From contig NZ_CP116477.1 in assembly GCF_028335745.1 (NCBI RefSeq), positions 3,534,001 through 3,598,000 on the forward strand: a stretch of DNA of 64,000 nt, read 5' to 3'. A program made the translations under genes and the position numbers. The notes beneath the pieces are model-generated. The model was not told the origin of the DNA and made no database searches. It worked only from the letters and a program-made list of their open reading frames with translations. Positions 11,028 through 33,290 of the stretch are shown one piece after another. How positions within the stretch are numbered: position 1 is the stretch's first letter; each line of letters begins with the position of its first letter. This stretch comes from Pectobacterium sp. A5351. Lineage in GTDB: Bacteria; Pseudomonadota; Gammaproteobacteria; Enterobacterales; Enterobacteriaceae.

Positions 11028-12758
11028 TTACTCCTCGCTTAAGGTCACCACGTCGTACATCACGCTGCCGCCTTTTAATTGCAGTGTGATCGTGTTGTTG
11101 CCGTTTTTCAGGAAACGGGATGACACGGGGATACGGGCAATGTGGTAGCGACCGCTTTGTAGCGCACCGCGATAAATAGTTTTGTCGTTTCCGTAAGTCA
11201 GTGTTTCCAGCATCCTGCCGTTTACCCCTACCGCTAGCTGCGGCAGGGTCGGTTCACTCATGCCGCTATTGCTGGCTGCCGCCAATGCGATATTCAGGAA
11301 ATAGGTTTTCTTCTCAGGTTGCAGGGCAAAACGGATATCCCATTTTCCCGGTTTGGTCTGCGCGTAATACCAGTCGCGTTGATAGTCGCTGCGGCTAATA
11401 TCGAACGTCAGATTGGCAGGCACCTCATGCTGCCAGCGGGTATTGCGTGCCTCGTCGCCAAAGCGGAATTCACTTGCCTGACGATTGGCTTGTCCAATGG
11501 CCCAGATAACCGGTTCAGCTTTGGGCAAAGCAATCACAGGCAGCGCTTGCTTGTCACCGGAAATGGACAGCGTCTGCTCTGCCAATATCCCCGGCTGCGT
11601 ACCGCTATTGGCGTAGACCGCAAGGTGGTAATTGCCCGGACGGACATGGGAAATCGCAAAATTCCCCTGTGTGTCTGTCGTTGCCTGATATGCATAGCCA
11701 CGGGTTTGTACATCAAACGGTTCATCCAATGATGATGAAAGCACCACCGTCACCGGTCGCTGGCTGGCAATGCGTCCGCTAACCTGTGTGCGATCGCGCA
11801 CATAGCGGGAATCGTCCACCCATGTGTACGGCCAACTGACGGCTTCCGTCAGCGCCTGACGCCGTGCATCTGCCAGAATCTGTTCGGTATCGCCCTGATT
11901 GATATACAGCAGCCACGGGCCGTAGAATTTTTTCCAACCTGGAGGCGCTACCATATCTGGCGTACCGAAGTGTGAACCCGTCATGTAGTTCAGAATGATC
12001 GCATCCTGATGTACCAGCAGATCCTGCTTGAGCGCATCGCCGGAAAAATACTCCCGATTGCCGTGAATCAGCCATGCGCCCACGCCATTGCCGAAAACGC
12101 CCCAGAAAGGCGCGGCGCGCACATAGCCAGCAAAATCATATTTGGAGTAGATACTGCCATCCGGTAGCTTCCAGGTTTCATCCTGTACCTTCGGTGCCGC
12201 TTCAAGTTGGCTGTAAAGCAGCGGTTTACCCTGACGTTCGCCGTTATAGAGATGGTCTAACCGGGCAGGATCGAAGCGGTATACGTTACGTAGTTCACTG
12301 ACTTTAACGTCCTGACTGCCGCGATTCTCCGCCACTACATAGCTGTAAAGTCCGCTAACGCCGCGACGCATAATCAGGTGATATTCAAGCCGTAACAGCC
12401 CGTTCCGGTCATCGATATAGGCGACATGCGCCATATCACGATCGTTGCGCAGCACCTCCACCCGCTCGGGGACAAAATCTTTGACGCCTTTGACATAAGC
12501 ATCGTTAACATAGTAATCGAGATAAGCGCTACGCGTTTTGCTTGGGTCGCGCGCCGCGCCGGACAGGTTGGTGACAATATTCTTATCCCCTGTCACCATA
12601 CTCACCGCGCTGCCATCCTCGCCAAATGCGACGCTGAGTAAGCCATTATCCAGCACAGTATGCAAACCAGAAACGGATAGCGACACCGCATTATCCTGCG
12701 CACTATAGCCATAGGGCGCCAGCATGGCCCCCACCAACAACAAGACAGATCGCTTCAC
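11028..12758 (-). CDS. rhiE: Rhamnogalacturonate lyase RhiE (PL4)
   Basis: A 576-residue secreted enzyme that cleaves the rhamnogalacturonan I backbone of pectin by beta-elimination. A signal peptide (MKRSVLLLVGAMLAPYGYSA) is followed by the large N-terminal beta-sandwich of family PL4 (about 25-330), a fibronectin-III/carboxypeptidase-like domain (about 335-425; RIASQRPVTVVLSS...GNFAISHVRPGNYHLAVYA) and a C-terminal carbohydrate-binding-like domain (about 430-576). This three-domain order and length match Dickeya/Pectobacterium RhiE, which is exported by the Out type II system and induced by rhamnose and pectin. The gene stands alone. The control region beyond 12758 has no KdgR box I would trust. 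Confidence 0.93.
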   Translation of the reverse strand: MKRSVLLLVGAMLAPYGYSAQDNAVSLSVSGLHTVLDNGLLSVAFGEDGSAVSMVTGDKNIVTNLSGAARDPSKTRSAYLDYYVNDAYVKGVKDFVPERVEVLRNDRDMAHVAYIDDRNGLLRLEYHLIMRRGVSGLYSYVVAENRGSQDVKVSELRNVYRFDPARLDHLYNGERQGKPLLYSQLEAAPKVQDETWKLPDGSIYSKYDFAGYVRAAPFWGVFGNGVGAWLIHGNREYFSGDALKQDLLVHQDAIILNYMTGSHFGTPDMVAPPGWKKFYGPWLLYINQGDTEQILADARRQALTEAVSWPYTWVDDSRYVRDRTQVSGRIASQRPVTVVLSSSLDEPFDVQTRGYAYQATTDTQGNFAISHVRPGNYHLAVYANSGTQPGILAEQTLSISGDKQALPVIALPKAEPVIWAIGQANRQASEFRFGDEARNTRWQHEVPANLTFDISRSDYQRDWYYAQTKPGKWDIRFALQPEKKTYFLNIALAAASNSGMSEPTLPQLAVGVNGRMLETLTYGNDKTIYRGALQSGRYHIARIPVSSRFLKNGNNTITLQLKGGSVMYDVVTLSEE

Positions 12759-13087: not shown

Positions 13088-15205
13088 TCAGAATGACAGT
13101 TCGCGAATCAGTACGGCGAACACGACTTTCCAACCGCGAATCAAAAGACTTTGCGCCTCACCGTCCATCACCACCGTGCCGCGCAGCACCTGCGGCTGAG
13201 CACGATAATCGTCCGGCAGACTGAGCAGCACGCGATAAACGGCCTGTTCGGGATGCAGTTTGCGCTGCGCATCGCTCAGCGTGGCGATATCCCCGCCATA
13301 CACCGAAGCCAGTTCTGGCGCAGCGTTCAGATCGCGGGTCGCCGTGCTGGCAATGTCCACAATCGTGAGCGGCAGCGACGAGCGGCTGACATCCTGTAAA
13401 TAAAATGTGCCCTTTCCGCCCATGTGCAGCCGCTGCCAGTCTTTTTCCGACACGAACGCCTCTACCAGCCCGCCGGTTGGCTTGGTGACGACCGCCAGCC
13501 ATTCACCCTGCCCCAGCCACTCGCCGGTTTCCAGCGGCGTTGCCATGTCAGCCACCACGCCGTCTATCGGCGCACGTACCGTCAGTTGTTCAGACTGACG
13601 CCGCAAGACCTGTAACTTTTGCAGCGCCGCTTCATGCTCCTGCTTCACCCGCTGGTGATCGCCAACCGCTTCCTTGTTGAATACCTGAAAGGTACTTTGC
13701 CACTTCAGCGTCGCGATCTGTCGCTCCAACTGCTGCCGTTCATGCGCCAGCGCGTCAGACGACAGGGTAAATAGCGTTTGCCCAGCGCGCACCGGCTGAC
13801 CGACCTGAACCTCAATGTGCTGAATCATCGCGGGCACAGGCATATACAGGCTGCTTTGCTGTTCCGCACGCAAAAGCGCGGGTGCATACACGCTGCGCTT
13901 CCAGGGAATCAGCAACACAAGCAGAAGTACAGCGCTCACCGTTAGCGTGGTCGTCATATTACGGTTCATACGATAATCCTTACGGCGTTTACTCCATTCA
14001 CGTACTTCATTCACTACCGGCATCACGACAAAGTAGCCGATTTCAATGGCAAAAAGCAGCATCCCCAATAACTTGAACGCCATGTGGTAAACCAGAATCG
14101 CGATACCAGTAAACAGGAAAAAACGATATATCCACACCGCAAAGGCATAGCCCACCAGCGTGCGTTGCAGCCAGCGCGGGAAGCGCTCCGGCGGGGCATC
14201 CCCTAAGCCGAACAGCCATTCCCTCATCTGCCAGCGGCCGATAGCAAAGCCGCGGTTTTGCAGGTTCGGCATCTGTAGCCCATCGGACAGCAGGAAATAG
14301 CCGTCAAAGCGCATCAGCGGACTGAGGTTAATCGCCAGCGTCATAATCCAGGTGGTCGTCGCCAGCATAAATGCGGCGCTGCGCAGCATACCGTCCGGCA
14401 AAAAGCTCCACGCCAGCGTCGCCCATGCCGCCAGTACCAGTTCGGTCACCATGCCTGCCGCACCAATCGCCATCCGCTGCCGCCGACGGGTGAGCTTCCA
14501 TGAACCGGACGTATCGGTATACAACACCGGCATCATCACCAGAAACGCAACGCCCATCGTGGCGACCCGCGCACCAAAGCGCTTGCAGGTGTAGGCGTGG
14601 CCAAATTCATGCAGGATCTTGGTAACGCACAGCGTCAGCCCTGCCAGCGCTGCACCTTCCAGCGTGAAGAAATGCAAAAAGGTATGCTTGAACGTTTCCC
14701 ACTGGCGTCCGGCGAGGAATAGCCCCAGCACGGCCACCAGCAGCGTCAGTTTGAGGAAAGTCCGACTGAAGAACGGCGCGACCCACGGCAGCGTCGCCCC
14801 CAGAAAACGATCGGGATGCCATAAAGGGATGCGAAAAAACAGATAGTTCTTCAACAGTTTGCGCCAAATGGAAACGCGTGACTGTTCCACCTGACGAGAA
14901 AACTGCGCCAGCGCGTCATCGCCGGACACGCGCGTCAGGCTGTTGGCCTGCAAGAAGCGGTTGAAATACTGCACATCGCTGTCATCCAGCGTGAGCGCAG
15001 AAGTTTGGTTAACCTCGGCCACGATCTGCGCAGCATCCCCGATCGACCAGCGCGAGAGCATCGCCATTTCTGCCCAGCCGATACGAAAATAGAGACCACG
15101 TATCGGATCTTCCAGCGTCCAACTGGGCGAACCGTCGCGGTTAGCCGGCCCGGCGTGCAGGATCAGTTCATCCCGTAGCGGGCTGAGTATGGCAGGCGAC
15201 GGCAT
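13088..15205 (-). CDS. Membrane M50 metalloprotease fused to an HlyD-type domain
   Basis: A 705-residue protein in two parts. The N-terminal 430 residues form a polytopic domain with the zinc site of M50 (site-2) proteases: HEFGH at 199-203 and NLSPLMRFDG at 293-302 provide the HExxH and the third-ligand Asp. Before it is a region like that of the peptide zinc metalloproteases (YFRIGWAEMAMLSRW). The C-terminal part (about 440-705) is a membrane-fusion/HlyD module with lipoyl-like halves (VRAGQTLFTLSSDALAHERQ and VRAPIDGVVADMATPLETGE) around a coiled coil. It overlaps the stop of the GAF/HlyD gene by one base. No ABC ATPase lies in the cluster, so this protein may supply the inner-membrane part of the exporter, the substrate processing, or both (inference). 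The clean zinc motifs suggest an active enzyme. Confidence 0.85.
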   Translation of the reverse strand: MPSPAILSPLRDELILHAGPANRDGSPSWTLEDPIRGLYFRIGWAEMAMLSRWSIGDAAQIVAEVNQTSALTLDDSDVQYFNRFLQANSLTRVSGDDALAQFSRQVEQSRVSIWRKLLKNYLFFRIPLWHPDRFLGATLPWVAPFFSRTFLKLTLLVAVLGLFLAGRQWETFKHTFLHFFTLEGAALAGLTLCVTKILHEFGHAYTCKRFGARVATMGVAFLVMMPVLYTDTSGSWKLTRRRQRMAIGAAGMVTELVLAAWATLAWSFLPDGMLRSAAFMLATTTWIMTLAINLSPLMRFDGYFLLSDGLQMPNLQNRGFAIGRWQMREWLFGLGDAPPERFPRWLQRTLVGYAFAVWIYRFFLFTGIAILVYHMAFKLLGMLLFAIEIGYFVVMPVVNEVREWSKRRKDYRMNRNMTTTLTVSAVLLLVLLIPWKRSVYAPALLRAEQQSSLYMPVPAMIQHIEVQVGQPVRAGQTLFTLSSDALAHERQQLERQIATLKWQSTFQVFNKEAVGDHQRVKQEHEAALQKLQVLRRQSEQLTVRAPIDGVVADMATPLETGEWLGQGEWLAVVTKPTGGLVEAFVSEKDWQRLHMGGKGTFYLQDVSRSSLPLTIVDIASTATRDLNAAPELASVYGGDIATLSDAQRKLHPEQAVYRVLLSLPDDYRAQPQVLRGTVVMDGEAQSLLIRGWKVVFAVLIRELSF

Positions 15206-16560
15206 TACACCCCCAGCCAGACGCGCAGGGAAGCCAGCGGTTTACGCAGCAGGTAAACGAACAGCACCGTGCGTTTCCCGTACAGCTTAGCGGTTCCTTT
15301 CAGGCCCACGCGCAGCTGCGGGTCATCTTGCGTAAAGCGCGCCCGAAGCCGATAGGCCATCACATTATCCGGCGTCGGCGCAGCGCGATAGCCAATCTGT
15401 TCAAGCCGTGCGTCCTGTGCCGAATTCGGTGCCACATTGAGGAACAGGCGCACATCCGCGCCGTTTTCCAGTGCAATCGCGTCCGCCGCAGGCAATTGGA
15501 TCTCCAGTTCAACATCGTGCGGATCGGCGATCATCATGATACGTTCCCCCACCGCCACCGAGCGCCCAATCCAGTCGTTGCTATCATCAAAAATCGCCAC
15601 GCCGTCGCGCGGGGAAACAAGCTGCATGCGTTCCTGCTGGCGTTGTAGAAAATCCATGTCGCTCTGCGCCTGCTCACGGCGGCTTTGCAGCACAGCCAGG
15701 CTGGCTTTGCTATTGGCATCGAACAGCGCCTGCTGCTGTGCCTGACGATACTGAGCATCGGCGGTGGCAAACGCCTGCCGCGCTGACTCCAGCCGATTTT
15801 CCAGCTCGCGCACATCCAGCCGTACCAGCGGCTGATTGGCGCTAACGGTCTGATTAGGGCGTACCAGTATGTCATCCACCACGCCCGCCACCGGAGCGCG
15901 CACCATCACCGGACGATGCGCGACGATCTCTGCCGGTGCCAGCACCGACTGGCGAACGGGGATCAATAAGATCAGCACCAGCGCCACGATCCCTGCCAGA
16001 ATCAAACGGCGTTTCTTCGGGTTGGTATTCGTCTGCCGCCGACGTGGTTTTTGCAAACTCGCCCACGCGTGGGCATACGCTTCTGCCAGCTTTTCCAGCA
16101 GCACGATCTCGGCAGGAAGCCACGCGCTGTCCCGCGCTAACACCAGCACCAGTGGCGTATCGCCCTGCGATAAACGCAGCGGTAGCCAGAGCAAAAACGC
16201 CGGCAGATGTTCCTGCCACAGGATTTGATCATCGACGGGTAGCTCGCGGCATTGCAGCGCCTGCGTTTGTCGCCCCTCTGCCTGCCACTGGCGGCACAGG
16301 CGGCTAAACTCGGTACAAAACGGCGCATTGTGATCGAGCGAGGCCAGCCCGGAAGCCACCTGCAAGCGCTGTTTATCGCAGTCCCACAGCAGCGCCTGTC
16401 GATATTTCACTACGTTGTGCGTCTCGTTGACGATAAAAAACGCCAGCTCATCCAGCGTTTCACGCGCTCTGGCACGGCTTTGCAGTTGTAACAGCTCGGC
16501 CAGCAGCGCCAGCCGGGTATCCTGTTCAGTTTGTGCTGCTGTCGTGTTCCGTTCGGTCAT
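15205..16560 (-). CDS. GAF-like / HlyD fusion adaptor
   Basis: A 451-residue protein. The first about 175 residues are cytoplasmic and look GAF-like (LDELAFFIVNETHNVVKYRQ at about 36-55, then LLWLPLRLSQGDTPLVLVLA). One membrane helix follows at about 186-202 (LILAGIVALVLILLIPV). The periplasmic part is a HlyD/membrane-fusion domain with two lipoyl-like halves (VRAPVAGVVDDILVRPNQTV and LVSPRDGVAIFDDSNDWIG) flanking a coiled coil. The layout suggests an adaptor whose cytoplasmic side senses a ligand or docks a partner. Its stop/start overlaps (ATG/TGA) with genes on both sides place it in one translationally coupled operon with the HlyD and M50 genes. The GAF assignment is from pattern only. 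Confidence 0.78.
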   Translation of the reverse strand: MTERNTTAAQTEQDTRLALLAELLQLQSRARARETLDELAFFIVNETHNVVKYRQALLWDCDKQRLQVASGLASLDHNAPFCTEFSRLCRQWQAEGRQTQALQCRELPVDDQILWQEHLPAFLLWLPLRLSQGDTPLVLVLARDSAWLPAEIVLLEKLAEAYAHAWASLQKPRRRQTNTNPKKRRLILAGIVALVLILLIPVRQSVLAPAEIVAHRPVMVRAPVAGVVDDILVRPNQTVSANQPLVRLDVRELENRLESARQAFATADAQYRQAQQQALFDANSKASLAVLQSRREQAQSDMDFLQRQQERMQLVSPRDGVAIFDDSNDWIGRSVAVGERIMMIADPHDVELEIQLPAADAIALENGADVRLFLNVAPNSAQDARLEQIGYRAAPTPDNVMAYRLRARFTQDDPQLRVGLKGTAKLYGKRTVLFVYLLRKPLASLRVWLGV

Positions 16561-17312
16561 GGCGACACGCGGCCTGCATCAGGCGGCACGATTTGCGCCA
16601 CGCCGCTCATGCCCGGCAGTAATCCGGCGGTGGATTGGGTTATGCGGCCAAAGACTTTTACCGATTGGCTAACCGGATCGATCGCCGAAGAAAGCCGGCT
16701 GATTTCCGCCGGATAGCTCAGGCCCGTTTCATCCAGCGTAACCTGAAAAGCGCTGCCCTGCTTTAACCACACCAGCCAGCGCGACGGCACGATCATTTCC
16801 AGCTCGAACGCGCTGTCATCATAAATCGCCAACAGCTCTTTACCTTCCGGCACGGATTCCCAGCGTTTCACCTTGGTTTCCGTGACGCGGCCGGAGAACG
16901 GGGCTTTGATAGCACAGCGTTGCAACATCGCGCGGTTAACGCCGCTTTCCGCCTGCGCCATCGACACCGACGATCGCGCTTGATCGACATCCGACAGGCT
17001 GATCGAATTGAGCTTGTCTAACCGATCGGCAATCGCCAGCTTCTTACGCGCGGCATTTTCCGCGGCGTTTGAGTAGTTCAGCTTTTCGCGCAGCACGGTG
17101 CAGTCAAACGTGATCAGCGTATCGCCCTGCTTGAATTGTTCGCCCTCTTTCACCGCAATATCCGTCACTTTCGCGGCAATTTCGCTGGATAACACGGTAT
17201 AGCGCTGCGCGCTAAGCTGCACGCGAATGTCACCGGTTGTCGCAGCCTGCCCCCACAGGGGCAGACTCAACGAACTCACGAGCAACAGCGGACGCATGAT
17301 GCCGAAGGTCAT
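16557..17312 (-). CDS. Periplasmic HlyD-family adaptor
   Basis: A 251-residue adaptor with a signal peptide (MRPLLLVSSLSLPLWGQAATT; an internal Met at residue 6 could be the true start) and a short barrel-sandwich with hairpin: VAAKVTDIAVKEGEQFKQGD (lipoyl half 1), a short coiled coil (about 75-120), and APFSGRVTETKVKRWESVPE (half 2), then a beta-barrel domain. Shorter than RND adaptors (about 370), like the small MFP proteins linked to M50 loci. It overlaps the upstream TolC-type gene and the downstream GAF/HlyD gene by a few bases, so all are one transcript. It probably bridges inner-membrane parts to the outer-membrane channel. Confidence 0.85.
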   Translation of the reverse strand: MTFGIMRPLLLVSSLSLPLWGQAATTGDIRVQLSAQRYTVLSSEIAAKVTDIAVKEGEQFKQGDTLITFDCTVLREKLNYSNAAENAARKKLAIADRLDKLNSISLSDVDQARSSVSMAQAESGVNRAMLQRCAIKAPFSGRVTETKVKRWESVPEGKELLAIYDDSAFELEMIVPSRWLVWLKQGSAFQVTLDETGLSYPAEISRLSSAIDPVSQSVKVFGRITQSTAGLLPGMSGVAQIVPPDAGRVSP

Positions 17313-19090
17313 TAACGCGAACCTCCCGCTTGTAGAGATTGCAGGTTATCCCACATATCGGTGTTCACCACGCGGTAAGGCTTGCCGTTAGTCGACGGTG
17401 TGACCACAGACGATGCTGCCGGTTTCACCACTGGGGCAACGGATACCGTTGTCGTAGCTGGCACAGCCGGTGTTGACAGGGACAGACGCGGTACAGCAAC
17501 GCCGCCTTTCTCAAGGTTACCCGTGGTGCGGGCAATCGAGCTGCTCAGCGCCGCCAAGCTGACATCGCTCACGTTATCCGGCAGCACATCCAGTCCGGCA
17601 GCCTGATACACCGCCCCCAGCGCGTTCTGCACGTCGGCAAAGCTGCGGTCACGCGCGCGGGTGGTCAGAATGGTTTCCGTGCTGACACGCACCTGTTCCA
17701 TCTGCGTTTCGGCACGATGCTGTACACTGAGCGTGGTCTGATTGAGGATGCCACGCTGAATCCGCGCCAGTTCCTGATAGCGACCGAACATCCGCGTGCT
17801 CTGCTGGTATTCCTGCCAGGCGACGTTTACCTGCGTCAGTACCGCCATACGCAGCGCCTGACGGCGGACTTCCGCCAGACCTTCATTCGCCTGTCCGGCG
17901 CGTTTCACCGATGACCACGACAGCACGTTCAGCAAGTTACCGCTGACCTGAACGCCGGCATTTGCCCACTGGTGATTGACCAGATAGCTGTTGCTGTCAC
18001 CGTTGATTCCAGCAAACAACGACACGCCCGGCAGCAGACGCAGCAGTGATTTACGGGTTTCCAGTACGCTGTTGCGTGCCAGATAGCTCTCTTCGCGCAC
18101 TTCCGGGCGTTTCACCATCGAGAAGTTTTCCAGATCGTCGAGCGAATAGGCCATCTTCGGCGCAACCAGACTGCTTTCGCTCGGCACGACGACATCGTAT
18201 TTGCTCGACGGTGGCAGATTCATCAGCGCCGCCAGACGGGATTTTGCTACCACCAGATCGCTGTCAACGATTTCCAACTGGCGCACCATCTCCAGCATAT
18301 TTTTCTGGAAACGCAGCGCCTCAACCGGTGCCAGCAAACGCTGTTGCTCGGTCTGGCGCGCATATTCCAGCGCCTGACGCGCCTGCGTCAGCGCCGTGGT
18401 CACTTCCGGCTGCAAACGTTGTGCGGTGGCCGCTTCCCAATAGGCCGTCCGCACCTGGCGGGTAATATCCGCCACGACGCGACGACGACGCTCTTCCGCC
18501 GCCAGCGATTTGTTCGCCTGCACTTTGGCGTTGAAATAGCTGATACCGAAGTCCAGCACGTTCCAGCTCATCGTCAGATCGGCGGTGCGCTGGGTTTGAT
18601 CCTGACTGGTAGACGCTTCCAGCGATTGTCTTCCCGTGGTCACCGACTGGCTGCTGGAACCGGCCACGTTATCGCGAGTTTGCAGCCCGGCACGCGCGGT
18701 CAGTTTCGGTAACAGCATATCCAGATTCTGTACGCCCAACAGGTCGTCTTCCATCGCCTGTTCCATCAGCGCGACTCGTTGTTGCAGGTTATATTTCAGC
18801 GCACGGGCAATCGCTTCATCCAGCGTGATCGTACCGCGTACCGGTTCCTGATTGGCGAACATCTGCGTTCTGTCGCTCAGCGCCTGGGCAACCTGCTGCT
18901 CAACCGTAATCGGCTCAGGCTTGACGGCACAGCCCGCCAACCCCAGACAGGCAAGGGTCACGGCGATCCGTAACACCCGGGAACCTGCGGTACGTGGTGT
19001 AGCCTCGTGTTGAACGTGCTGCTGCTGACTGTCGTGTTGCTGGCTATCCCAGAAATGCGCTATGTGCTGATTCACCCGGGTTCTCCCCAT
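17312..19090 (-). CDS. TolC-family outer-membrane lipoprotein channel
   Basis: A 592-residue TolC-type efflux/secretion channel. A lipobox-like LACLGLAGCAV at about 52-62 predicts a lipidated Cys, and two OEP repeats follow (about 90-300 and 320-510; GTITLDEAIARALKYNLQQR and ARQALEYARQTEQQ). It is longer than usual (about 450-490) because of a 45-residue leader and a Pro/Thr/Val-rich tail (about 535-592). The leader may not be real: a GTG at 19075 has GGGGAGA six bases upstream and is a plausible alternative start. It stands between the giant surface protein gene and the HlyD genes, so it should be the exit duct for that protein. Confidence 0.87.
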   Translation of the reverse strand: MGRTRVNQHIAHFWDSQQHDSQQQHVQHEATPRTAGSRVLRIAVTLACLGLAGCAVKPEPITVEQQVAQALSDRTQMFANQEPVRGTITLDEAIARALKYNLQQRVALMEQAMEDDLLGVQNLDMLLPKLTARAGLQTRDNVAGSSSQSVTTGRQSLEASTSQDQTQRTADLTMSWNVLDFGISYFNAKVQANKSLAAEERRRRVVADITRQVRTAYWEAATAQRLQPEVTTALTQARQALEYARQTEQQRLLAPVEALRFQKNMLEMVRQLEIVDSDLVVAKSRLAALMNLPPSSKYDVVVPSESSLVAPKMAYSLDDLENFSMVKRPEVREESYLARNSVLETRKSLLRLLPGVSLFAGINGDSNSYLVNHQWANAGVQVSGNLLNVLSWSSVKRAGQANEGLAEVRRQALRMAVLTQVNVAWQEYQQSTRMFGRYQELARIQRGILNQTTLSVQHRAETQMEQVRVSTETILTTRARDRSFADVQNALGAVYQAAGLDVLPDNVSDVSLAALSSSIARTTGNLEKGGVAVPRLSLSTPAVPATTTVSVAPVVKPAASSVVTPSTNGKPYRVVNTDMWDNLQSLQAGGSR

Positions 19091-19189
19091 CTTCTATTTG
19101 TCTGTTCCCTTCGGCTTGCAGGCGGTGGCCTGCAAGCGCTTAGGTGTGTGTGGTTAAGGAATAAAATCTCGTCTCGATCTGCGGCGTGC

Positions 19190-22100
19190 TTACGCACGCA
19201 GGCTGCTAAGTTCACTGAGCGCCGCCAGCAGCGCATCCTGTTCAGGCTGGTGCTGATGCAGTTGTTCAGTAAAGGCGGTTTTTCCCATTGGTGCTAATCG
19301 TTCTGCCTCCCGGTTTTCCGTCGGGAATGAAGACCGTTGCATTGCGCCACGATCAGTCGCCATTTCTGCACCAGCGCCCTGCCCGGTTTGCAGCGTAATC
19401 GGTACGATCCGGCTAGTACCGTCTGCGGCCTGCGCTTTCAACGCCAGTTGGATCTGGTTAACCTGCACCGCACTGGCATCGGTAATGCGCACCACGCCGC
19501 TGCGAGCATCAAACTGCACCCACGCAGGCAGCGGACGCCCGTTCGCCAGTTGCAGCGTCAGCATGGCGTTGCCTTCACGCACGCTGAACATGCGCTGCGG
19601 CAGGCTAAAGGCCAGTTCGCCGGAGGCATCCGGCAGCAACGCGCCTTGCACGCTGCTGAACGCCGATTCCAGCGCTGTTGTCTGACCACGTACGCTCAGG
19701 AACAGGTTGGAATCCGTCGAGCGCACGGCGGCGCTATCGCGTATCGCCGCCTCAGCACGTGAAGAGAAGTTGACCTGCTCCAGCGTCGGCATCAGCTGTG
19801 ACATCACGGGGTCGAGTACCCAAGGCGCATCCGATGGTCGTGTCGTATCGGCAGCGCGCTGGCGTGCAGGTTCAGCGGTGGTGCTGGTGGGTAACGATTG
19901 TGGTTGCGCGTCTGGACGAGACAGATCGGCGACAATCGCGCCTAACGGCTGCTCGCGTTCTCTTTCATCCGCATCCGCGGGCAGGCTTGCGCCCTGCTGC
20001 ACCAGAATCACCGGTGCCGCTGTTGAGGTGTTATCAGGATTGGCCGGCTCCGTCGGCGTGCCGGGGTCGACCGGCGTAACAGGATCGACTGGCGTTGAGG
20101 CAGCATTAATCGTCAGCGCCACAGTCAGCGCCGTCGCGTTCCCCGCGCTGTCCGTGGCGGTAATCGTTACGTTAAACGTTCCCGCCGTTGACAGCATGCC
20201 GCTGAGAGTACGGGTTGCGCTATCAAAGCTCACACCGTTAGGCAACTGTGCCGCGTTAATGGTTATCGTTAGCGTGTCATTCTCTGGGTCGCTAAACAAA
20301 CCAGTGGGCAAGGCATAAGACCAGTTAGAGCCAACCTGAGCCGTAGGCGGGGTGAACAACTCAGCGTGACCAACAGGTGGCAGGTTAACACTATCGGAAA
20401 TCGTCACCGTCGCCTCATAAGGCGTGGAATCCTGCTCTCCGTCATTCAGTATCACACGGAGTGCCACAGAACTTTCATTAACCACGACTGTGCTGCGCCA
20501 CCCCATCTGGCGCACAAGAGCGGTGGCCTCATCACGGGAAAGGCTCGCGGTAAACGTTACAGAAGCCCGGCCATCAGCCTGATCCAACGTTGCCACCGGT
20601 TGCCCATCTTTACTGATAACGTTACCCGATACGGTAAAACCGTTGCCGGCAATCATCTCAAAACGATCGTTTGATGACGGAGATTCACTGCGCTGAAACA
20701 CAACAGATGCCCCACGGTAATCCCCTGCCCCGCCATTTGCAGCATCTAATTCCGCATCACTGAGTATCAATGTCGGCACCGCTGCAACCGCAGATCCCCC
20801 ATTGGTATAGAAAGCACTTAGCGGAGTCTGGCGCATCACCACCAGCGCATCGGCAAGGATAATGATTTCACCTCGTGGTGATACCGTAATTTTCTGGGCA
20901 TCCGCCAGATTATTCTGGGTATCAATACGTTCCAACGTGTCCGCAGAATAATAAGCCAGAGAACCATCGGACAAGGCGACGTACAGCGTTTTATCATCTG
21001 CTGACAGTGAAATGTCTTCCACCGTTGCGGTGCCATTGAGCGTGCCCAAATGCGTTAATGTCCCGGCAGCGTTGAGTCGGAAAGCATCTATTTTCAATGG
21101 GTGGTTAGTTACCGTGTTTTCCCCTGTCCATCCGTTAAAGGAACTGGTACGGCTATTGGCGATAAAGATCGTTTTTCCATCGGCGCTGACTGATAAATGC
21201 TGCACATATTGTAGATCTACGACTTTGCCGGTGCTGTCTGCTTCCCCAGAATGGAGATACGTCAGCGGGGTCAACTGACCTGTTTCACTATTACGTTGAT
21301 AAACAATGAGTGATGAACCATTGCTGGGGTTGGTCACCACATAAACCTTATCTCCCTGCGTGACAACTTCCGTCGGAGACCACAAATAAGGCGGTGATGA
21401 CATATCGCTCTGGAGATCTTGAAGATGGGTCAGTGCGCCAGTCGTGGTATCTCGCCCATAAACGATAATCGTCGTCCGATCCATCAGATAAAGGTTTTTC
21501 CCATCATCCGACAGCGTAATCTGCGCCGCATCCCAGATCTGTTTGAGAGAGCTTTGCTCTGTCAGATTGCCTTCACTATCAAGAGCGAAAGTAACAATAA
21601 TCCCTTCGCTGCTATTTCTTTGCAGAGCGTATAAATTCGCACCATCAGACGTCATTTGGAGTTGAATGACACCGCTGGCAATAGCGCTCGTCCGCATGTG
21701 CGTCAACGTGCCATCGGCATTGCGAGTAAATAACGCAATGTGACCCTGCTGGTCAGCAATATATACGCGGCTACCGTCAGCAGACACCGTGCTGCTCGTT
21801 GAGCCAGTCAGCCCAAATGTCGACAATTCCAGAGTCTGTAACCGATCTAAATCGCCGAATGACAGAACAGGATCGTTGTTGATAACTGGAACATCATTAA
21901 TCTGTGTGATGCCTATGGTTACAACCGAATCCTGAGAAACCAGATAGCGATCGGCCAGCGTCACCGTCACCACAACCTGTGCGGCTGGCGTATGGCTGTC
22001 GCTGGCGTAGGTAATCTGGCGCAGCGTATTCTGCACATCTTCCGTGGTTGGAATCGTGCCTGCATTCGCATTAAAGCGAATCGTCAGCACACCGTCTTGG

Positions 22101-24601
22101 TTACTGATTTGACCAATGGTGACACCGTTTTTCTGAAGCGTATCGCCCGACAGCGTCAGGCCATTGCCTGCACTGAAGCCCAGCTTATCCAGCGCCGTTT
22201 TGCCATCGCCCAGTGTAATCTTGAGCGTCGCGCCGTCATAGTTGCTCTTGCCGCCGTTGAGTTTGTCCATCTGCGCGTCGGACACCGTCGCCTCCGGTGC
22301 CAACACGATAGGATCGGCACGTTCGGTATACGTCGGCGTGGTGACAGGAATCGTGATAACTGGCGCAGTATTGGTTTCTACCGCCGGTGCCAGCGTTAGC
22401 GTAATCGCCTGTTCTAGTTTGGTTTCCGGTGCGCTGCCGTTATAACTATTTTCCTTGATCATCAGGGTGACATGGCGTTCACCGCTGGACTCGCTGCCCA
22501 GATAATTGTAGCCAATGCTGTCAATGATCGCGGCGGTTCCACTCGCGTCTCTCGCGACATACAGGAGAACCGTCGCTTTACCGTCCTTCACATCAACAGA
22601 GTATTGCAAGCCGCTGGCGGTGCGGGGAACACCGCTGGATTTTTCGAGCACAATCGTGCTGCCATCAACGCTAATAACTTCGTTAGGGCCTGAGACATCA
22701 AATGTCAGTACCACCTGCCAGATGGTTTGTCCGCGCTCAATGGTGTCGATATGCGTATCTTTAAACAGCTTAACGAACTCGCTGTTGCCCGGAATCTGTG
22801 GATTCAGCACCGTCGTCGTCAATATCGCAGGATCGTTCACGCCAACGAGATTAACGGTGATGTCCATACTAGCAATGTTATTGTCGCCGTCATTAATCCT
22901 GAAGGTGAATATCGGCGACGATCCTGCCTGTTCGGGATCCTGACTGGTGTTGTGGTAGGTGATCTGGCGCAGCACATTCTGCGCATCGGCTTTGGTCACC
23001 GCCGCCGTAAATGTCACTGTCAGCACGCCCTCCACCTGCGTAAAGGTGGCGATCGCCGTGCCGTCTTTAACGAGAGTGTTACCGTCCAACGTTAAGCCGT
23101 TATCCGCCTTAAAGCCAAAGGTGTCTTCCGGTAGCCCATCCTTTTCCCGACTAACGGTGATGCTCGCACCGTTATAGTTGCCCACGCCATTATTTAACGC
23201 ATCAAGCTGCGGATCGGACAGACGACCAGACGGCAGCAGCACCGTGGCGTCACGACCTTCGGTATAGCTTGCACCGGCGATGCCGATATTCAGAACATGG
23301 ACTTTATCGCCACCAATCAGGTAAAGCTGCTTACCATCAGCACTCAGTTCCACCTTTTGCAGATCGGAGAAAGAAATGCCGATCGGGCTATTCCAGTCAC
23401 CACTGATGGTGGATTTCAGCGTCAGGCTGCCATCTTCTGCGCGGGAGAAGATTGAAATGTTCTTACCGATCACAAACAGGGCCGTGCCATCGGCAGAAAC
23501 GACCAGATCGGTCGCCAGTGCCTCGCCGGAATCGCCACCATCATTGGCAAACGGCACTGTCGAGACCAGCGTAAGCGCACCATCGGCACCTACCGTTATC
23601 GTATTGAGCGTGTAATTGCCCACATCGGCATGAATCGCATACAGCGTTTTGCCGTCAGGGGATAAGGCAAGTGAATTGATGTAATACAGGTCTTCGCCTT
23701 CAGCACGAATCTGGGAAACCTGGGTGAGCTTGCCCTCAGCATCAATGCTGAACCCGGTGACACCAACCGTATCGCCTAAACCCGACACAAACAGATAACG
23801 CCCAGTCGGATCCAGCACAAGACGGCTAGCGCCGATCAGATTATCGGTCTGAGACACCGACGTCAGACTACCGTCCGTTCCGCGTTTAAATACCAGTACG
23901 CTGCGGCTGTCATTATTACTGTCAGTTTGAGCCGCAGTCATGTAAAGATAATCGCCCTGCGAAACAAGATGGGAACGTACGTCCAGCGAATGACCGCCCA
24001 GCGCGGCTTGATCAAGCACAGCGGCTTGCGTCAGTTTCCCCTCGCTGCCCACGCTGAAGATCGTGACGGCATTACCTTCACTGCCCACCACATAGAGATA
24101 TTGTCCATCAGTGGACAATGCCACGTCTGACGCTCCCGCCAGTGACTTGATCGGCGTTATTTTTTCATCTGTGGATTCTGATGTGAACGTTTTCGACAGG
24201 GTAAATTTATCTGACGCATCACGGACAAAAATGCTTAACGCCGATGAACCACCATCAAGTGAACTCACAACATACAGGTACTGACCATCAGCAGAAATGG
24301 CAGAAGCTCGCACGCCTATCATCACATCTCGTCCAATAACGTCACTGTACCTCTCTTGTAAAGACTGATCTTTTTCCAATGCTGAAGATTCCCCCGCGAT
24401 CGCAGGCACTGATGAAACCACAGCAAGTTGAGACATCGTGGCATCATCACCAGATACTGTGTCTGTTGCCGCAACGTGCGCAACCACATCCACCGCCGTG
24501 GAAACAGCCGCAGCATCAAACATCATGCGCGGTTCCAATACCCACGCCTGACGCGGCGCGCGCGTTAAGCCTGAACCAGATTTTGAGCGGGAAAAAGTCA
24601 T
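19190..24601 (-). CDS. Giant LEPR-XLL surface/adhesin-like protein
   Basis: About 1803 residues. The N-terminus has the LEPR-XLL signature (VLEPRMMFDAA, about residues 21-31), typical of very large exported surface proteins. Then come a beta-propeller built of lactonase-like repeats (SADGQYLYVVSS, STDGQYLYVVGS, DPTGRYLFVSGL, SPDGKTLYAIHA), two cadherin-like repeats with LD(A/K)LN-G-NY-GA motifs, a second propeller, a third such repeat, an Ig-like He_PIG domain (LPTGLFSDPENDTLTITI), a Pro/Thr linker and a final PLPAWVQFDARSG domain. No RTX nonapeptides are seen. The start at 24601 is chosen because CAGGA lies upstream and it places LEPR close to the N-terminus; an in-frame ATG at 24640 is possible. 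It follows tadG by 58 bases and precedes the export genes, so it is the likely cargo. Confidence 0.85.
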   Translation of the reverse strand: MTFSRSKSGSGLTRAPRQAWVLEPRMMFDAAAVSTAVDVVAHVAATDTVSGDDATMSQLAVVSSVPAIAGESSALEKDQSLQERYSDVIGRDVMIGVRASAISADGQYLYVVSSLDGGSSALSIFVRDASDKFTLSKTFTSESTDEKITPIKSLAGASDVALSTDGQYLYVVGSEGNAVTIFSVGSEGKLTQAAVLDQAALGGHSLDVRSHLVSQGDYLYMTAAQTDSNNDSRSVLVFKRGTDGSLTSVSQTDNLIGASRLVLDPTGRYLFVSGLGDTVGVTGFSIDAEGKLTQVSQIRAEGEDLYYINSLALSPDGKTLYAIHADVGNYTLNTITVGADGALTLVSTVPFANDGGDSGEALATDLVVSADGTALFVIGKNISIFSRAEDGSLTLKSTISGDWNSPIGISFSDLQKVELSADGKQLYLIGGDKVHVLNIGIAGASYTEGRDATVLLPSGRLSDPQLDALNNGVGNYNGASITVSREKDGLPEDTFGFKADNGLTLDGNTLVKDGTAIATFTQVEGVLTVTFTAAVTKADAQNVLRQITYHNTSQDPEQAGSSPIFTFRINDGDNNIASMDITVNLVGVNDPAILTTTVLNPQIPGNSEFVKLFKDTHIDTIERGQTIWQVVLTFDVSGPNEVISVDGSTIVLEKSSGVPRTASGLQYSVDVKDGKATVLLYVARDASGTAAIIDSIGYNYLGSESSGERHVTLMIKENSYNGSAPETKLEQAITLTLAPAVETNTAPVITIPVTTPTYTERADPIVLAPEATVSDAQMDKLNGGKSNYDGATLKITLGDGKTALDKLGFSAGNGLTLSGDTLQKNGVTIGQISNQDGVLTIRFNANAGTIPTTEDVQNTLRQITYASDSHTPAAQVVVTVTLADRYLVSQDSVVTIGITQINDVPVINNDPVLSFGDLDRLQTLELSTFGLTGSTSSTVSADGSRVYIADQQGHIALFTRNADGTLTHMRTSAIASGVIQLQMTSDGANLYALQRNSSEGIIVTFALDSEGNLTEQSSLKQIWDAAQITLSDDGKNLYLMDRTTIIVYGRDTTTGALTHLQDLQSDMSSPPYLWSPTEVVTQGDKVYVVTNPSNGSSLIVYQRNSETGQLTPLTYLHSGEADSTGKVVDLQYVQHLSVSADGKTIFIANSRTSSFNGWTGENTVTNHPLKIDAFRLNAAGTLTHLGTLNGTATVEDISLSADDKTLYVALSDGSLAYYSADTLERIDTQNNLADAQKITVSPRGEIIILADALVVMRQTPLSAFYTNGGSAVAAVPTLILSDAELDAANGGAGDYRGASVVFQRSESPSSNDRFEMIAGNGFTVSGNVISKDGQPVATLDQADGRASVTFTASLSRDEATALVRQMGWRSTVVVNESSVALRVILNDGEQDSTPYEATVTISDSVNLPPVGHAELFTPPTAQVGSNWSYALPTGLFSDPENDTLTITINAAQLPNGVSFDSATRTLSGMLSTAGTFNVTITATDSAGNATALTVALTINAASTPVDPVTPVDPGTPTEPANPDNTSTAAPVILVQQGASLPADADEREREQPLGAIVADLSRPDAQPQSLPTSTTAEPARQRAADTTRPSDAPWVLDPVMSQLMPTLEQVNFSSRAEAAIRDSAAVRSTDSNLFLSVRGQTTALESAFSSVQGALLPDASGELAFSLPQRMFSVREGNAMLTLQLANGRPLPAWVQFDARSGVVRITDASAVQVNQIQLALKAQAADGTSRIVPITLQTGQGAGAEMATDRGAMQRSSFPTENREAERLAPMGKTAFTEQLHQHQPEQDALLAALSELSSLRA

Positions 24602-24659: not shown

Positions 24660-26291
24660 TCATTCAACCAGCCGCACGTAACCGCCCTCGGTTTCGATCT
24701 GGCCGGCGATACGATCCAACCGTTGAATCAACTGATCCTCAACGCCCTCTGCGCTGAAGCCTGCACCATCGATAAAGCTCATACGTTTTTCGCCCTCGGT
24801 GCAGATCAGCAGACCCGGCGTCGCTTCTCTGTCGAACAGGTTGCGGCCAAAGTCTTCAGGGTCGCCGGGACGAATGCCGATAAAATAAAATTTGATGTTG
24901 CGCGCGCGGAAGCTGGAGCACAGATCGCGAAAACGCTGTGCGGCAAAGGAACGGGCAGGATCCGAGCCGGTCGAACCTCGAAATTCGTTACGATTGAAGT
25001 TGTAGCTGTCGGTGTCGAACCAGTTACCGATGGTATTCGCCATCATGACGATCACCTTTTGCCCGTCACCGTTGCCATCCAGATTGAAGTCCAGCGGCAG
25101 GGTCGCATCTCCCCAGCCGTCTGAACCGCGCATATTGGGCGACAGCGCCGCGCCTGCCCACCCCATCGCGATGGCATAGTTGGTATTGAAACGTGGCTGT
25201 AACTGACCAATGCGCTGATTCAGCTTGCTTTCTTCATTGGTCAACGGCATCAGTGCCGCGTTCGGGCACCCTCTATCCGCGACGATAAAGCGGGTATCTA
25301 CAGCATCAGAGTTGTTATCCCACGGGTAGAGATCGGGGTTGGGGCCACGCCAGGTAATCGGCGGCGCGCCGGGACTACCGTTTTGCGGCAAATCGTGGCG
25401 GTAGTACACGCGAAATTGCCCAGCGGGCGGCTCATCCCAGAAGAAATTTTCTTCCCGTCCCAGCCCACGGTACATGCACAGCAAATTCGCCCGGCGATCG
25501 GGGAAACGACGGTCAGCCAGACTACTCACCACACCGCTGGCAAACAGCGAACGCAGCTCTGGCGGGTTCAGCGCACTCGGCGTAGACCAGCGACGAATGC
25601 GGTTGGCATCTTCCGCGTCGTACACGTTCACCGACTGGCTGTACGGCACCAGCGACAGCCACAGGTTGTCGCGTTTACCGTCCGCGCTGCTTAGCATGCG
25701 CTCAACGAAGCTGCGGCTAACGCTTTTCAGCGAGCTGATATCGGCATCACTCATATCCCCCGTTACTGGCATCACAAAAGCCACTTCCGTCGGACGGTTG
25801 ACGATCTCTGACGTCGAATACACTTCCTGCTTCCTTGCGCCGAGGCTCAGCAGGCTGGGCTTAGTTTCAAAGGCGACGGTGACGGTATAGGTTTTACGCG
25901 TAGCGCTGTTTTGCCCTTCCATGACGGACACATCACCGACCACCAGCTTTTCACTCAGGGCCTTATTCATTCCTAGGTTATTTTTAACGTACTCATACGC
26001 CAGCTTCGTAGTGTCTTCCTGGCTGTACTCTTCACCGTTAATGGTCGCCTGATGCCCGACAGCCAACGCGGCAGCATCCGTCGCGCGTTTGATTTGTGTC
26101 GCATCGCCGGTGGCCGTAGAGGTATCCACGATAAAAGCCGCCGTCACCAATAACGCCATCGCACCCAGCACATAAAACCCCGTGCCTGCGCCATTTTCCT
26201 GCTGAATAAAAGCGGACAGGCGTTCATGCCAGAACAGAGTGATTCCGGTAGCGTCTTTTTTTACTCTTCTGTTCTGTAAGGTTTTTCTCAT
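24660..26291 (-). CDS. tadG: TadG-like pilus assembly protein
   Basis: A 543-residue protein with an N-terminal membrane helix (about 42-62; FYVLGAMALLVTAAFIVDTS) followed by the TadE/TadG-like segment ATGDATQIKRATDAAALAVG and a von Willebrand A-like region starting at about residue 172 (TEVAFVMPVTGDMSD). The usual DxSxS metal site is not intact (PVTGDMS), while other VWA features remain (NYAIAMGWAGAALSP, KVIVMMANTIGN, RNIKFYFIGIRPGD). TadG is a minor pseudopilin-like or anchoring component of Flp pili. The start follows AGGAAAGG directly. It is the last canonical tad gene and is followed closely by the LEPR-XLL gene. Confidence 0.87.
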   Translation of the reverse strand: MRKTLQNRRVKKDATGITLFWHERLSAFIQQENGAGTGFYVLGAMALLVTAAFIVDTSTATGDATQIKRATDAAALAVGHQATINGEEYSQEDTTKLAYEYVKNNLGMNKALSEKLVVGDVSVMEGQNSATRKTYTVTVAFETKPSLLSLGARKQEVYSTSEIVNRPTEVAFVMPVTGDMSDADISSLKSVSRSFVERMLSSADGKRDNLWLSLVPYSQSVNVYDAEDANRIRRWSTPSALNPPELRSLFASGVVSSLADRRFPDRRANLLCMYRGLGREENFFWDEPPAGQFRVYYRHDLPQNGSPGAPPITWRGPNPDLYPWDNNSDAVDTRFIVADRGCPNAALMPLTNEESKLNQRIGQLQPRFNTNYAIAMGWAGAALSPNMRGSDGWGDATLPLDFNLDGNGDGQKVIVMMANTIGNWFDTDSYNFNRNEFRGSTGSDPARSFAAQRFRDLCSSFRARNIKFYFIGIRPGDPEDFGRNLFDREATPGLLICTEGEKRMSFIDGAGFSAEGVEDQLIQRLDRIAGQIETEGGYVRLVE

Positions 26292-26469
26292 CCTTTCCTA
26301 TCCTGTATTCCTGGATTCAGCGCGAACTTAACCCACCCATAAAACGGGAAAATAAAAACGACATGGCTCACACGTTATTTGTCTTAATCGTTTCGTTATT
26401 CCGGCAACAAGACTTTCGCCGCCGTTTACGGTCTATTTGCCGCTTCTGTGTCTTGTATAAAGCCCGTAA

Positions 26470-27102
26470 CTATTGATCTTCTTCTTCCAGACCGGCCTCT
26501 TTTCGGAGTACCTCATCCAGTTCCACCGCGTTGATAGCAACCCGATTGACTGACGAGGCATGCAGCAGGCCACCCAACGACAGGCCGCCCAGCAGGCTTA
26601 CATCTTTCCCCTGACGGCAAATCTCAACCACGATCATAGTGGTATTTTTGCTGCCTTCTTCGCGGTCTCTTTCCGGCAGTTCAGGAAGATATTCTTCACC
26701 CGACAGCGTTTCACTTTCCGCACACAGCGCTTCTACCGTGCCCCTGCTCAACTGCCAGTACAATTCACCGGTCTGGCGCACGTTGCTGATTAACAGTTGG
26801 TAGTTTCCTGCGCCTTCCGTTGGCAACACCGTATCGAGCAGCCCTTGCAAGCCTTTCTCATCGAGCTTCTGCTGCATCGCTACTATTGACGCGATGGCAC
26901 CCGCACGTTGTTCCATGCGCGTGCGCTCCAACCCGACGGTATAGAGATCCGCACATAGCGACCCAATCGCCAACACAATAGGAAACGCTAACGCTGTTTC
27001 TACTGCGGTAGATGCGCCGCGAGAAAACCAGAAGCGGCGGAGCCCATTCAGTAAACGACGGGGTTTCCATGAACGACGGGTTTTCAGTAAAACATCAGTC
27101 AT
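26470..27102 (-). CDS. tadF: TadF-like minor pseudopilin
   Basis: A 210-residue protein whose N-terminus holds a prepilin-like hydrophobic helix after a glycine (RGASTAVETALAFPIVLAIG, about 29-48), the TadE/TadF pattern that TadV-type peptidase would cut. The remainder is periplasmic with many charged residues. The start at 27102 (MTDVLLK) is chosen because the upstream in-frame start lies inside tadE; the genes overlap by 8 bases. A gap of about 180 bases to tadG holds nothing else I recognise. Confidence 0.85.
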   Translation of the reverse strand: MTDVLLKTRRSWKPRRLLNGLRRFWFSRGASTAVETALAFPIVLAIGSLCADLYTVGLERTRMEQRAGAIASIVAMQQKLDEKGLQGLLDTVLPTEGAGNYQLLISNVRQTGELYWQLSRGTVEALCAESETLSGEEYLPELPERDREEGSKNTTMIVVEICRQGKDVSLLGGLSLGGLLHASSVNRVAINAVELDEVLRKEAGLEEEDQ

Positions 27103-27655
27103 TGCGCAGTTCCGTCCCAAACACATGTTTGTACTGGTAGCGGAACGTGTCTCCCAGCGTTAACACTTCCGGCAGCGGCGTGATAAACGCCTTTTTAATC
27201 TGCACCGTCACGGACCACACTGGCAGCGTCGTCGTTTCCTCGCCATTGGGATTGTCCTGACTGCTATTGCCGTTGGTCAGCCCGCCAAGCTGGCTCAGAT
27301 TGTCGAAGTGCAACACGCTGACGGTTAAATCGTCTTCCTTGAGGTAGCCATACCCCGCTTCAACCATCCGCGCCTTTAGGCGGGTACTCATCTGCTCCGC
27401 GCTGTCCGACGCGAGATTATCGAGGCGGAAAGCCTGCACGGCTTTATCCAGCGCGGCGCTTCCGGCGGCAATCACCAGCCCGATGCGCGCCAGTTCAAAC
27501 AGCATCATCACCCCGACCAGCACCACCGGTACCAGAAACGCCACTTCCGTCGCGATCACACCGCACGTGCTGCGCCAGTGGCGTTCATGGCGCGGTACGA
27601 TACTTTGCACGATGCCTCTATCACGCCACGGGCCGAGATTACGAAGCCACGCCAT
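27095..27655 (-). CDS. tadE: TadE-like minor pseudopilin
   Basis: A 186-residue protein with the TadE signature: GVIATEVAFLVPVVLVGVMM at about residues 32-51, with a Gly followed by a Glu at +5 of the hydrophobic helix as in class IVb prepilins. A periplasmic domain follows. Its ATG overlaps the tadD stop. Together with TadF it should be processed by the prepilin peptidase encoded at the head of the cluster and act in pilus initiation. Confidence 0.88.
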   Translation of the reverse strand: MAWLRNLGPWRDRGIVQSIVPRHERHWRSTCGVIATEVAFLVPVVLVGVMMLFELARIGLVIAAGSAALDKAVQAFRLDNLASDSAEQMSTRLKARMVEAGYGYLKEDDLTVSVLHFDNLSQLGGLTNGNSSQDNPNGEETTTLPVWSVTVQIKKAFITPLPEVLTLGDTFRYQYKHVFGTELRND

Positions 27656-28506: not shown

Positions 28507-28537
28507 TTTCGCTCACTCCATCGGTTGTAACCCTGGT

Positions 28538-28561
28538 GATTCCCGGTACATACCGGGAATC
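28538..28561. other. Intra-operon hairpin before tadD
   Basis: A perfect 10-base stem (GATTCCCGGT / ACCGGGAATC) with a 4-base loop sits 32 bases upstream of the tadD ATG. A second, AT-rich inverted repeat (ATCGAT...ATCGAT with TTTTAAAA between) follows just beyond it. No U-tract directly adjoins the GC stem on the minus strand. It may be an mRNA processing or expression-setting element dividing the operon. Confidence 0.6.
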
Positions 28562-28621
28562 GATGTTTTAAAATCGATATTTTTCAAACAACATCAAAAT
28601 CAATGCCCTGAAAATAACAAG

Positions 28622-29581: not shown

Positions 29582-29595
29582 GAATGGCTCTCCCT

Positions 29596-30576: not shown

Positions 30577-30594
30577 CGGCGTCTCCTTCGTCCG

Positions 30595-31998: not shown

Positions 31999-32076
31999 AA
32001 TCCTGAACCTCAAAAAACAGTCCGTAACCCTAAAATAATCCGTTCATCTTTGAAAAACGGCGCACGCTGAACATCA

Positions 32077-33276: not shown

Positions 33277-33290
33277 GGAATGTCACGCCC

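Follow-up and report, generated by a model that had tools for sequence, protein, structure and literature searches.

A stretch of 64,000 nucleotides from Pectobacterium sp. A5351 (NZ_CP116477.1, positions 3,534,001 to 3,598,000; hereafter the window, numbered from its first letter) carries genes for a giant protein, a TolC-type channel, a small HlyD-type adaptor, a GAF domain fused to an HlyD adaptor (GAF-HlyD) and an M50 metalloprotease fused to an HlyD adaptor (M50-HlyD). Judged from their sequences, these genes probably encode a dedicated, type I-like envelope machine without an ATP-binding cassette (ABC) exporter that serves one giant surface protein, a reading to which we assign a probability of roughly 0.6. 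The machine is best read as a putative export-and-processing device for end-tagged giant proteins. Throughout, type A denotes the branch of the window's M50-HlyD, type B a sister branch bearing a SecA-like ATPase and G000 the window's own genome; other genomes and loci are cited by G and L numbers.

Recurrence of the gene set and its genomic setting

M50-HlyD was detected in 42 of 274 genomes of the class (E 1e-10; the own genome is included in both numbers), in 14 of 197 genomes of the order (E 1e-20) and in all 25 Pectobacterium genomes searched. The own genome contained a single M50-HlyD and a single match to the N-terminal cargo motif described below. Neighbourhoods were read in 20 of the 41 further class genomes with a match and around the best 80 of at least 559 relatives in named genomes, which is not a random sample. 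The type A set comprised 84 loci (L045, L047, L048, the 80 named loci and the window), with L044, L046 and the partial L049 left out. On the same strand within 6 kb of M50-HlyD, 79 of these loci had a GAF-HlyD, 55 a small HlyD and 54 a TolC gene. All three flanked M50-HlyD in 53 loci, a count that is probably too low because many loci stop at contig ends or have fused frames. Type A recurred in Pseudomonadota, Nitrospirota and Thermodesulfobacteriota, and the arrangement singled out in the earlier note on this DNA is real, non-random and shared by relatives. The whole set was also present on the Escherichia coli wastewater plasmid pABWA45_1 (L205, L207; annotated as giant, TolC, adaptor, HlyD, HlyD), and the megaplasmid of Cupriavidus metallidurans CH34 had the same gene order, as judged by open reading frame (ORF) lengths without a domain scan. 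M50-HlyD homologues occurred on 79 plasmid records, including 18 from Escherichia and 8 from Citrobacter. Azospirillum brasilense likewise encodes an M50-HlyD homologue. On pABWA45_1, the sole E. coli plasmid neighbourhood read, IS1 elements adjoined the module.

An ABC-labelled gene lay on the same strand within 6 kb of M50-HlyD in 6 of the 84 type A loci. Genes labelled ABC in the vicinity of these modules were mostly short (230–375 aa). Five of at least 490 aa (in L073, L106 and the window, and two in L123) had ATPase domains and no match to the exporter membrane family PF00664 at E 0.1; the one in the window was 39.6 kb from the module. Several type A loci were short, and the result covers linked genes in the stretches read. 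That relatives harbour an overlooked ABC exporter next to the module was ruled out for these stretches, the nearby ABC genes being short or ATPase-only. The survey of LEPR-type motifs, M50-HlyD, GAF-HlyD and ABC adjacency that the earlier note had proposed found co-occurrence of the first three and no linked ABC exporter, and the note's observation that such an exporter is missing held for the operon and for the surroundings of the 84 modules, as a trait common to relatives. A further conserved type A component was ruled out by clustering the 576 neighbouring ORFs: a sensor-kinase-like family (assigned by eye) reached 13 of the 84 loci, cargo-like groups 7 and 5, and every other group at most 3.

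In the window, the minus-strand order was TadG-like gene, giant, TolC, small HlyD, GAF-HlyD and M50-HlyD (Table 1). The TolC gene began 99 nt after the end of the giant gene, and the four machine genes overlapped by 1, 4 and 1 nt.

Table 1. Positions in the window of the cargo and machine genes, their motifs and the adjoining TadG-like gene
Feature	Position	Strand	Remarks
TadG-like gene	24660..26291	-	last of Tad/Flp pilus cluster; directly upstream of cargo gene
Giant cargo protein	19190..24601	-	1803 aa from start at 24601; ORF to 24640 gives 1816 aa
N-terminal motif LEPRMMFDAA	24509..24538	-	type A form of LEPR; translation checked
C-terminal motif GKTAFTEQL	19259..19285	-	22 residues ahead of protein end; translation checked
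TolC-type outer-membrane channel	17312..19090	-	LAGC lipobox-like N-terminus by eye
Small HlyD/RND-type adaptor	16557..17312	-	signal-like N-terminal segment by eye; best 10-residue hydrophobicity 1.92
GAF-HlyD	15205..16560	-	N-terminal GAF fold at residues 12–175; one transmembrane segment at about 186–204; then adaptor domain
M50-HlyD	13088..15205	-	N-domain of bbbaaa topology at residues 15–87; M50 metalloprotease with several transmembrane segments; adaptor domain at residues 436–689
M50 zinc motif HEFGH	14597..14611	-	H199, E200, H203; invariant in 80/80 aligned homologues
M50 third-ligand motif NLSPLMRFD	14303..14329	-	N293, D301; invariant in 80/80 aligned homologues

A Tad/Flp cluster at 24660–36462, with two T2SSF genes, T2SSE, CpaD, a secretin, RcpC, a TPR protein and TadG, abuts the cargo gene, and a rhamnogalacturonate lyase gene (PL4; 11028–12758) lies directly downstream of the module. 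This order of TadG, cargo, module and lyase was kept in all six Pectobacterium loci read. Tad-like genes likewise surrounded the module of Marinomonas rhizomae (L122). The accessible part of a paper on the Pectobacterium Flp/Tad cluster (PMC3767616) does not mention genes downstream of it. A promoter scan performed no better than chance, and a tandem-repeat search, a DUF4347 lead and passages from papers on LEPR-XLL yielded nothing useful.

Giant cargo proteins and their end motifs

The window's cargo contained no cysteine in 1816 residues, and no transmembrane-like hydrophobic segment was found in it. Stretches of lactonase-type beta-propeller and an Ig-like domain were recognised in it; at E 0.1 there was no match to an RTX family. 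In a test for Sec-type signals, the best N-terminal 10-residue hydrophobicity reached at least 2.0 in 2 of 24 motif-bearing ORFs, both from a small third M50 branch (see below), and in 53 of 57 small HlyDs. By their sequences, type A cargos lack a recognisable Sec signal, contain hardly any cysteine and bear a conserved motif at each end. Some related frames were far larger: in Limnohabitans sp. T6-5 (L132, G311) the N-terminal motif lay within an open frame of 17,576 aa, and LEPR-XLL frames of 10,000–14,000 aa occurred in the SecA-bearing genomes G240, G053 and G107. In M. rhizomae, a LEPR-XLL match (G278:C1:339898-339951) fell in a 4,115-aa frame; the cargo of the module there is a different one, of 1,672 aa.

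We searched 100 loci and the window, with 1123 ORFs of 300 aa or longer, for an N-terminal pattern of approximately LExRxx[FL][DS][GA]A within the first 200 residues. The pattern matched 25 ORFs, all unlabelled and at least 588 aa long, and no machine gene. In an alignment of 22 type A sequences (A2), F and D were invariant; because the pattern itself dictates L, E and R and the closing A (or A/D), only F over L and D over S count as findings. The type A consensus was LExRx[ML]FD[GA]A and the type B form LEPRxLLSA. A profile built from A2 matched 9 of the 274 class genomes, two of them weakly (G112, with a stop in frame, and G056; E 0.003–0.004). Eight of the nine were among the 42 M50-positive genomes (p 1.3e-6, or 4.5e-5 without two training genomes; both values ignore kinship). 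Outside the training set, the profile matched 38 of 40 genomes with a type A module, and in 32 of the 40 the place and strand of the match fitted the module within 20 kb (contig identity unchecked); the 17,576-aa frame of L132 starts farther away and its span reaches the module. The importance that the earlier note had attached to the N-terminal LEPR motif was borne out in that the motif travels with the machine.

The LEPRxLLSA form was sought as a DNA pattern and matched 11 of the 274 class genomes. Inspected by eye, eight of these matches were uninterrupted LEPRx[L][LF]SA, all in M50-positive genomes; the other three had a stop or other residues and came from M50-negative genomes. The NCBIfam model LEPR-XLL (NF012209) matched 17 of 28 module genomes versus 0 of 14 controls. 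Matches were stronger among SecA-bearing genomes (7 of 9) than among the rest, and of the 14 genomes whose M50 falls in the window's branch, 9 had a match above the family cut-off. The model gave no match to the window's cargo at E 0.1 and none in G000. The giant of the E. coli plasmid (4457 aa, one cysteine), which was read after the motifs had been set, carried RFALESRQLFDGAA from residue 15. The N-terminus of the CH34 giant lay outside the part of the megaplasmid that was read, and its C-terminus was AASFTDQIRQLASR.

Many type A cargos carried G[KR]xx[FL]xxQ[LVF] near their end. In a split-half test with 54 cargo candidates (half for training, half for testing) and 886 control ORFs, the C-terminal profile recovered 16/27 and 18/27 held-out cargos at E 0.1, with 8 and 10 matches among the controls. 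At E 0.01, the values were 13/27 and 12/27 versus 5 and 8. Some control matches look like cargos missed by the filter (e.g. L071_3_5654 and L124_3541_6684).

While M50-HlyD was 94–96% identical in 24 other Pectobacterium species, the cargo was far more variable. A cargo match was present in all 25 Pectobacterium genomes, with open frames of about 1,780–3,260 aa that were split over frames in G529 and G531. Four of six relatives (L215–L218) shared 73–85% identity with the window's cargo over residues 1–74 and 66–75% over residues 1434–1816, versus 32–34% in the locally aligned middle; the middle was 46% identical in L220 and 83% in L219. Both end motifs occurred in all seven Pectobacterium cargos read, including the cargo of a second module in L221. 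A second M50-HlyD, approximately 40% identical to the first, was present in 20 of the 25 Pectobacterium genomes (interrupted by stops in G529) and lacking in the window's genome. In G525 (L221, 1-18001), this second module is free of Tad genes and is accompanied by a separate cargo bearing LEPRILFDGA and, at the C-terminus, FSQQL.

Machine domains and the SecA-bearing sister branch

The window's M50-HlyD scored 29.5 bits with the Pfam M50 model PF02163 (cut-off 27.2) and contained the HExxH and NxxPxxxxD motifs. A domain scan found no ATPase domain in M50-HlyD or elsewhere in the operon. HlyD-type adaptors, a TolC-type channel and the GAF fold in the N-terminal domain of GAF-HlyD were all recovered. 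Matches from a fold search with the M50-HlyD model were taken up entirely by the adaptor domain and so cover that domain alone. The best NCBIfam match of M50-HlyD was a daptide maturation protease (residues 65–395; 149 bits, cut-off 300), and YydH/LiaK was among the matches (30.3 bits, cut-off 225), both below the curated cut-offs. The bbbaaa topology of the N-domain fits the winged-helix fold of PqqD and of the recognition elements (RREs) of ribosomally synthesized and post-translationally modified peptides (RiPPs). A mixed N-domain profile searched against the PDB returned TbiB1, PqqD and TfuB1 as the first three of six matches; TbiB1 and TfuB1 we take to be RREs. PqqD matches were obtained for 9 of 30 members of the mixed set and 4 of 8 type B N-domains (NCBIfam). 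The domain may be kin to the PqqD/RRE leader-binding domains, and the evidence hints weakly at such kinship.

In some loci of the class, a SecA-like ATPase was encoded beside M50-HlyD (Pfam matches on two, hidden Markov model labels in eight). SecA was compared across 28 hand-picked genomes (20 of the class and 8 of the 80 named). A single SecA_DEAD match scored more than 400 bits in each genome. Nine of the 28 also encoded a second SecA-like protein, a short one (231–350 bits), in 10 copies altogether, every copy beside an M50-HlyD. Type B is partly defined by SecA, and we hence give counts and no p-value. Among 14 genomes with a window-branch M50, 13 were without the second SecA (other matches scored 20–32 bits); Candidatus Nitrospira defluvii has both type A and type B modules. 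The own genome encoded one SecA, and its sole other SecA_DEAD match, at 32 bits, is presumably RecG-like. None of the 84 type A loci carried a SecA label.

The eight short SecA-like proteins that were aligned all ended at residue 672–673 of the 898 residues of canonical SecA, to which they were 33–41% identical; they are paralogues without the C-terminal quarter. A cut at this position presumably keeps the motor and drops the parts that engage SecYEG. The type B motor is probably this truncated SecA paralogue. With this pairing of M50 with a separate SecA paralogue in the sister branch, and with no ATPase domain found in M50-HlyD, the suggestion in the earlier note that M50-HlyD replaces the ABC subunit is not supported as regards the motor. 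Its other suggestion, that the protease processes the cargo, is plausible from the invariance of the catalytic residues.

In a tree of 90 M50 proteins (quick method, unrooted), nine SecA-linked M50s together with those of L058 and L061 were separated from the window branch and a small third branch with a Shimodaira–Hasegawa-like approximate likelihood ratio test (SH-aLRT) value of 100. One of L058 and L061 sits on a long branch; their genomes contain canonical SecA alone, and LEPR-XLL matches are present. The cargos of the third branch (L054 2152-5502 and L059 11915-14425) carry their motif (MRKLExRVVLDAA) at the very N-terminus, starting at residue 4. In both loci an ABC-labelled gene of about 620 aa adjoins M50. 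The gene of L054 encodes two ABC ATPase domains and ABC_tran_CTD; the 25 families listed out of 32 include no membrane domain, and the gene is read as an ABC-F-type neighbour.

Proposed mechanism, alternatives and comparison with known systems

In the mechanism we propose, the PqqD/RRE-like N-domain of M50-HlyD would capture the N-terminal leader LExRx[ML]FD[GA]A, and the intramembrane M50 site would trim or license the cargo at this leader. The three adaptors and TolC may form the conduit to the outside, which the GAF domain of the second adaptor could gate, and the C-terminal motif might act as a second sorting mark. Since the type B motor is probably a truncated SecA and no motor is encoded in the type A operon, the likeliest energy source of type A would be the housekeeping SecA or another cellular pump. 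A more far-reaching version, which we hold tentatively and at somewhat less than even odds, is a separate secretion system for giants without signal peptides, with a two-ended address, one inner-membrane protein combining PqqD/RRE-like receptor, M50 protease and HlyD adaptor, and a motor that is SecA lacking its SecYEG-engaging part (type B) or borrowed (type A). If true, receptor, gate and conduit would derive from peptide maturation and Sec rather than from ABC exporters.

Several observations weigh against a dedicated export-and-processing machine of this kind. M50-HlyD of L044 and L046 had no labelled module neighbours, and with these loci and L049, all of the window's branch or similar, the three neighbours were complete in 53 of 87 loci. 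G245 had a type A N-terminal motif (G245:C76:12373-12462, L161) and no M50-HlyD match at threshold; L088 and L102 were the two of the 40 genomes without an N-terminal match. The C-terminal profile missed 20 of the 54 held-out cargos, and the E. coli plasmid cargo deviated at its end with GAPSLAAQV (GAPSLAAQVDAL). The hydrophobicity gap in the window was small, with 1.73 for the cargo as against the value of the small HlyD in Table 1. The Pfam PqqD model matched just 4 of 69 type A N-domains (best E 0.0066), a type A-only profile had four PDB matches with no RRE among them, and the window's own N-domain received no PqqD score. L058 and L061 fell on the SecA side of the M50 tree, yet no SecA-like gene adjoined their modules. 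In the literature covered, we found no experiment that addressed export or cleavage by this machine.

The lack of an ATPase in the operon would also suit a housekeeping route, in which SecA/SecYEG or an unlinked ABC exporter carries the cargo across the inner membrane and the module serves outer-membrane passage and processing only. The own genome could supply either pump: besides its canonical SecA it had 12 PF00664 matches, of which 11 exceeded the cut-off and four resembled type I secretion system genes by eye. However, none of the 12 lay inside the window and the nearest was about 85 kb away, the four type I-like genes adjoined HlyD-, TolC- or substrate-like ORFs of their own (by eye), the cargo N-terminus has no Sec-like hydrophobic core, and the missing linkage to an ABC exporter is common to relatives. 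We regard this route as rather doubtful.

Regulated retention and release offers another account. In the LapA/LapG type of regulated adhesin, the protease LapG releases LapA by cutting at a double-alanine site, with LapD as receptor. By analogy, the giant would be exported starting from its C-terminus, where the conserved motif would be the export signal, its LEPR segment would stay plugged as an anchor, and a GAF-sensed M50 cut would release the adhesin. The conservation of both cargo ends around a variable middle fits this account, as do an M50 site that is catalytically intact by sequence, a GAF domain in an adaptor of the same operon and the sensor-kinase-like neighbours (by eye) at 13 of the 84 loci. 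LapA-type export, as we understand it, needs an ABC exporter, and none was found linked; an intramembrane protease would be an odd site for a release step, and LEPR-family motifs also mark giants in SecA-branch genomes, which suits an entry signal better. We consider this account unlikely. Very improbable, in our view, is that M50-HlyD belongs to a RiPP-like peptide maturation or efflux system with the giant as an incidental neighbour. The daptide and YydH/LiaK matches and the PqqD-like N-domain point that way, but the scores were far from the curated cut-offs, the module is accompanied by giants with end motifs in three phyla and on a plasmid of E. coli, and the cargo ends are conserved while the middle diverges.

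The novelty lies in the branch without SecA, in its likely cargo with a motif at either end and in the PqqD-like domain; as a kind the system is only partly new, since the sister locus with SecA has been published. Among open-licence papers, we found neither a description of the SecA-free branch, its cargo or motifs nor an account of how giants of the LEPR type reach the outside. The branch is common, being present in all 25 Pectobacterium genomes searched and on plasmids, and the ABC-less set, occurring in many bacteria, looks like a widespread and little-studied means of bringing giant proteins to the cell exterior. With a likely cargo, its two end motifs and a PqqD-like domain now named, the export of LEPR-type giants and the substrate and role of the sister locus are open to direct test.

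A locus with SecA_DEAD, Peptidase_M50, HlyD and GAF-HlyD genes was published by Kamneva, Poudel and Ward in 2015 (PMC4452313). According to the accessible text, SecA is a possible ATPase, M50 a possible pore and the locus secretion-related, and its biological role is termed completely unknown; LEPR is not mentioned in that text. As far as the same text goes, their locus resembles that of the window in its M50/HlyD, GAF/HlyD and HlyD genes, a TolC-type outer-membrane efflux protein in some cases and the finding of no ABC transporter. In contrast, a SecA-like ATPase is missing from the window's branch, which falls on the far side of the SH-aLRT 100 split in the unrooted quick tree. Of the distinct secretion route envisaged in the earlier note, the SecA-free branch stands as new, whereas the SecA sister locus and the idea of an M50 pore were already contained in the accessible text of PMC4452313.

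LEPR-XLL proteins and the window's cargo have an N-terminal LE(P)R core in common. They differ in that the type A motif reads LExRx[ML]FD[GA]A and the type B motif LEPRxLLSA, and the window's protein falls below the model. The daptide and YydH-LiaK proteases share the M50 core with the window's M50-HlyD, which, unlike them, is fused to an HlyD adaptor and encoded beside a giant protein instead of a peptide. Type I secretion, as we understand it (HlyB/HlyD/TolC; LapB/LapC/LapE), has in common with the window a TolC channel, HlyD adaptors, a giant, cysteine-free, adhesin-like cargo and a conserved C-terminal element, which may or may not correspond to the uncleaved C-terminal secretion signal, often with RTX repeats, of type I substrates. 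In contrast to type I secretion, the window has no ABC exporter and no RTX match; its M50 protease, GAF domain and N-terminal motif are extra features.

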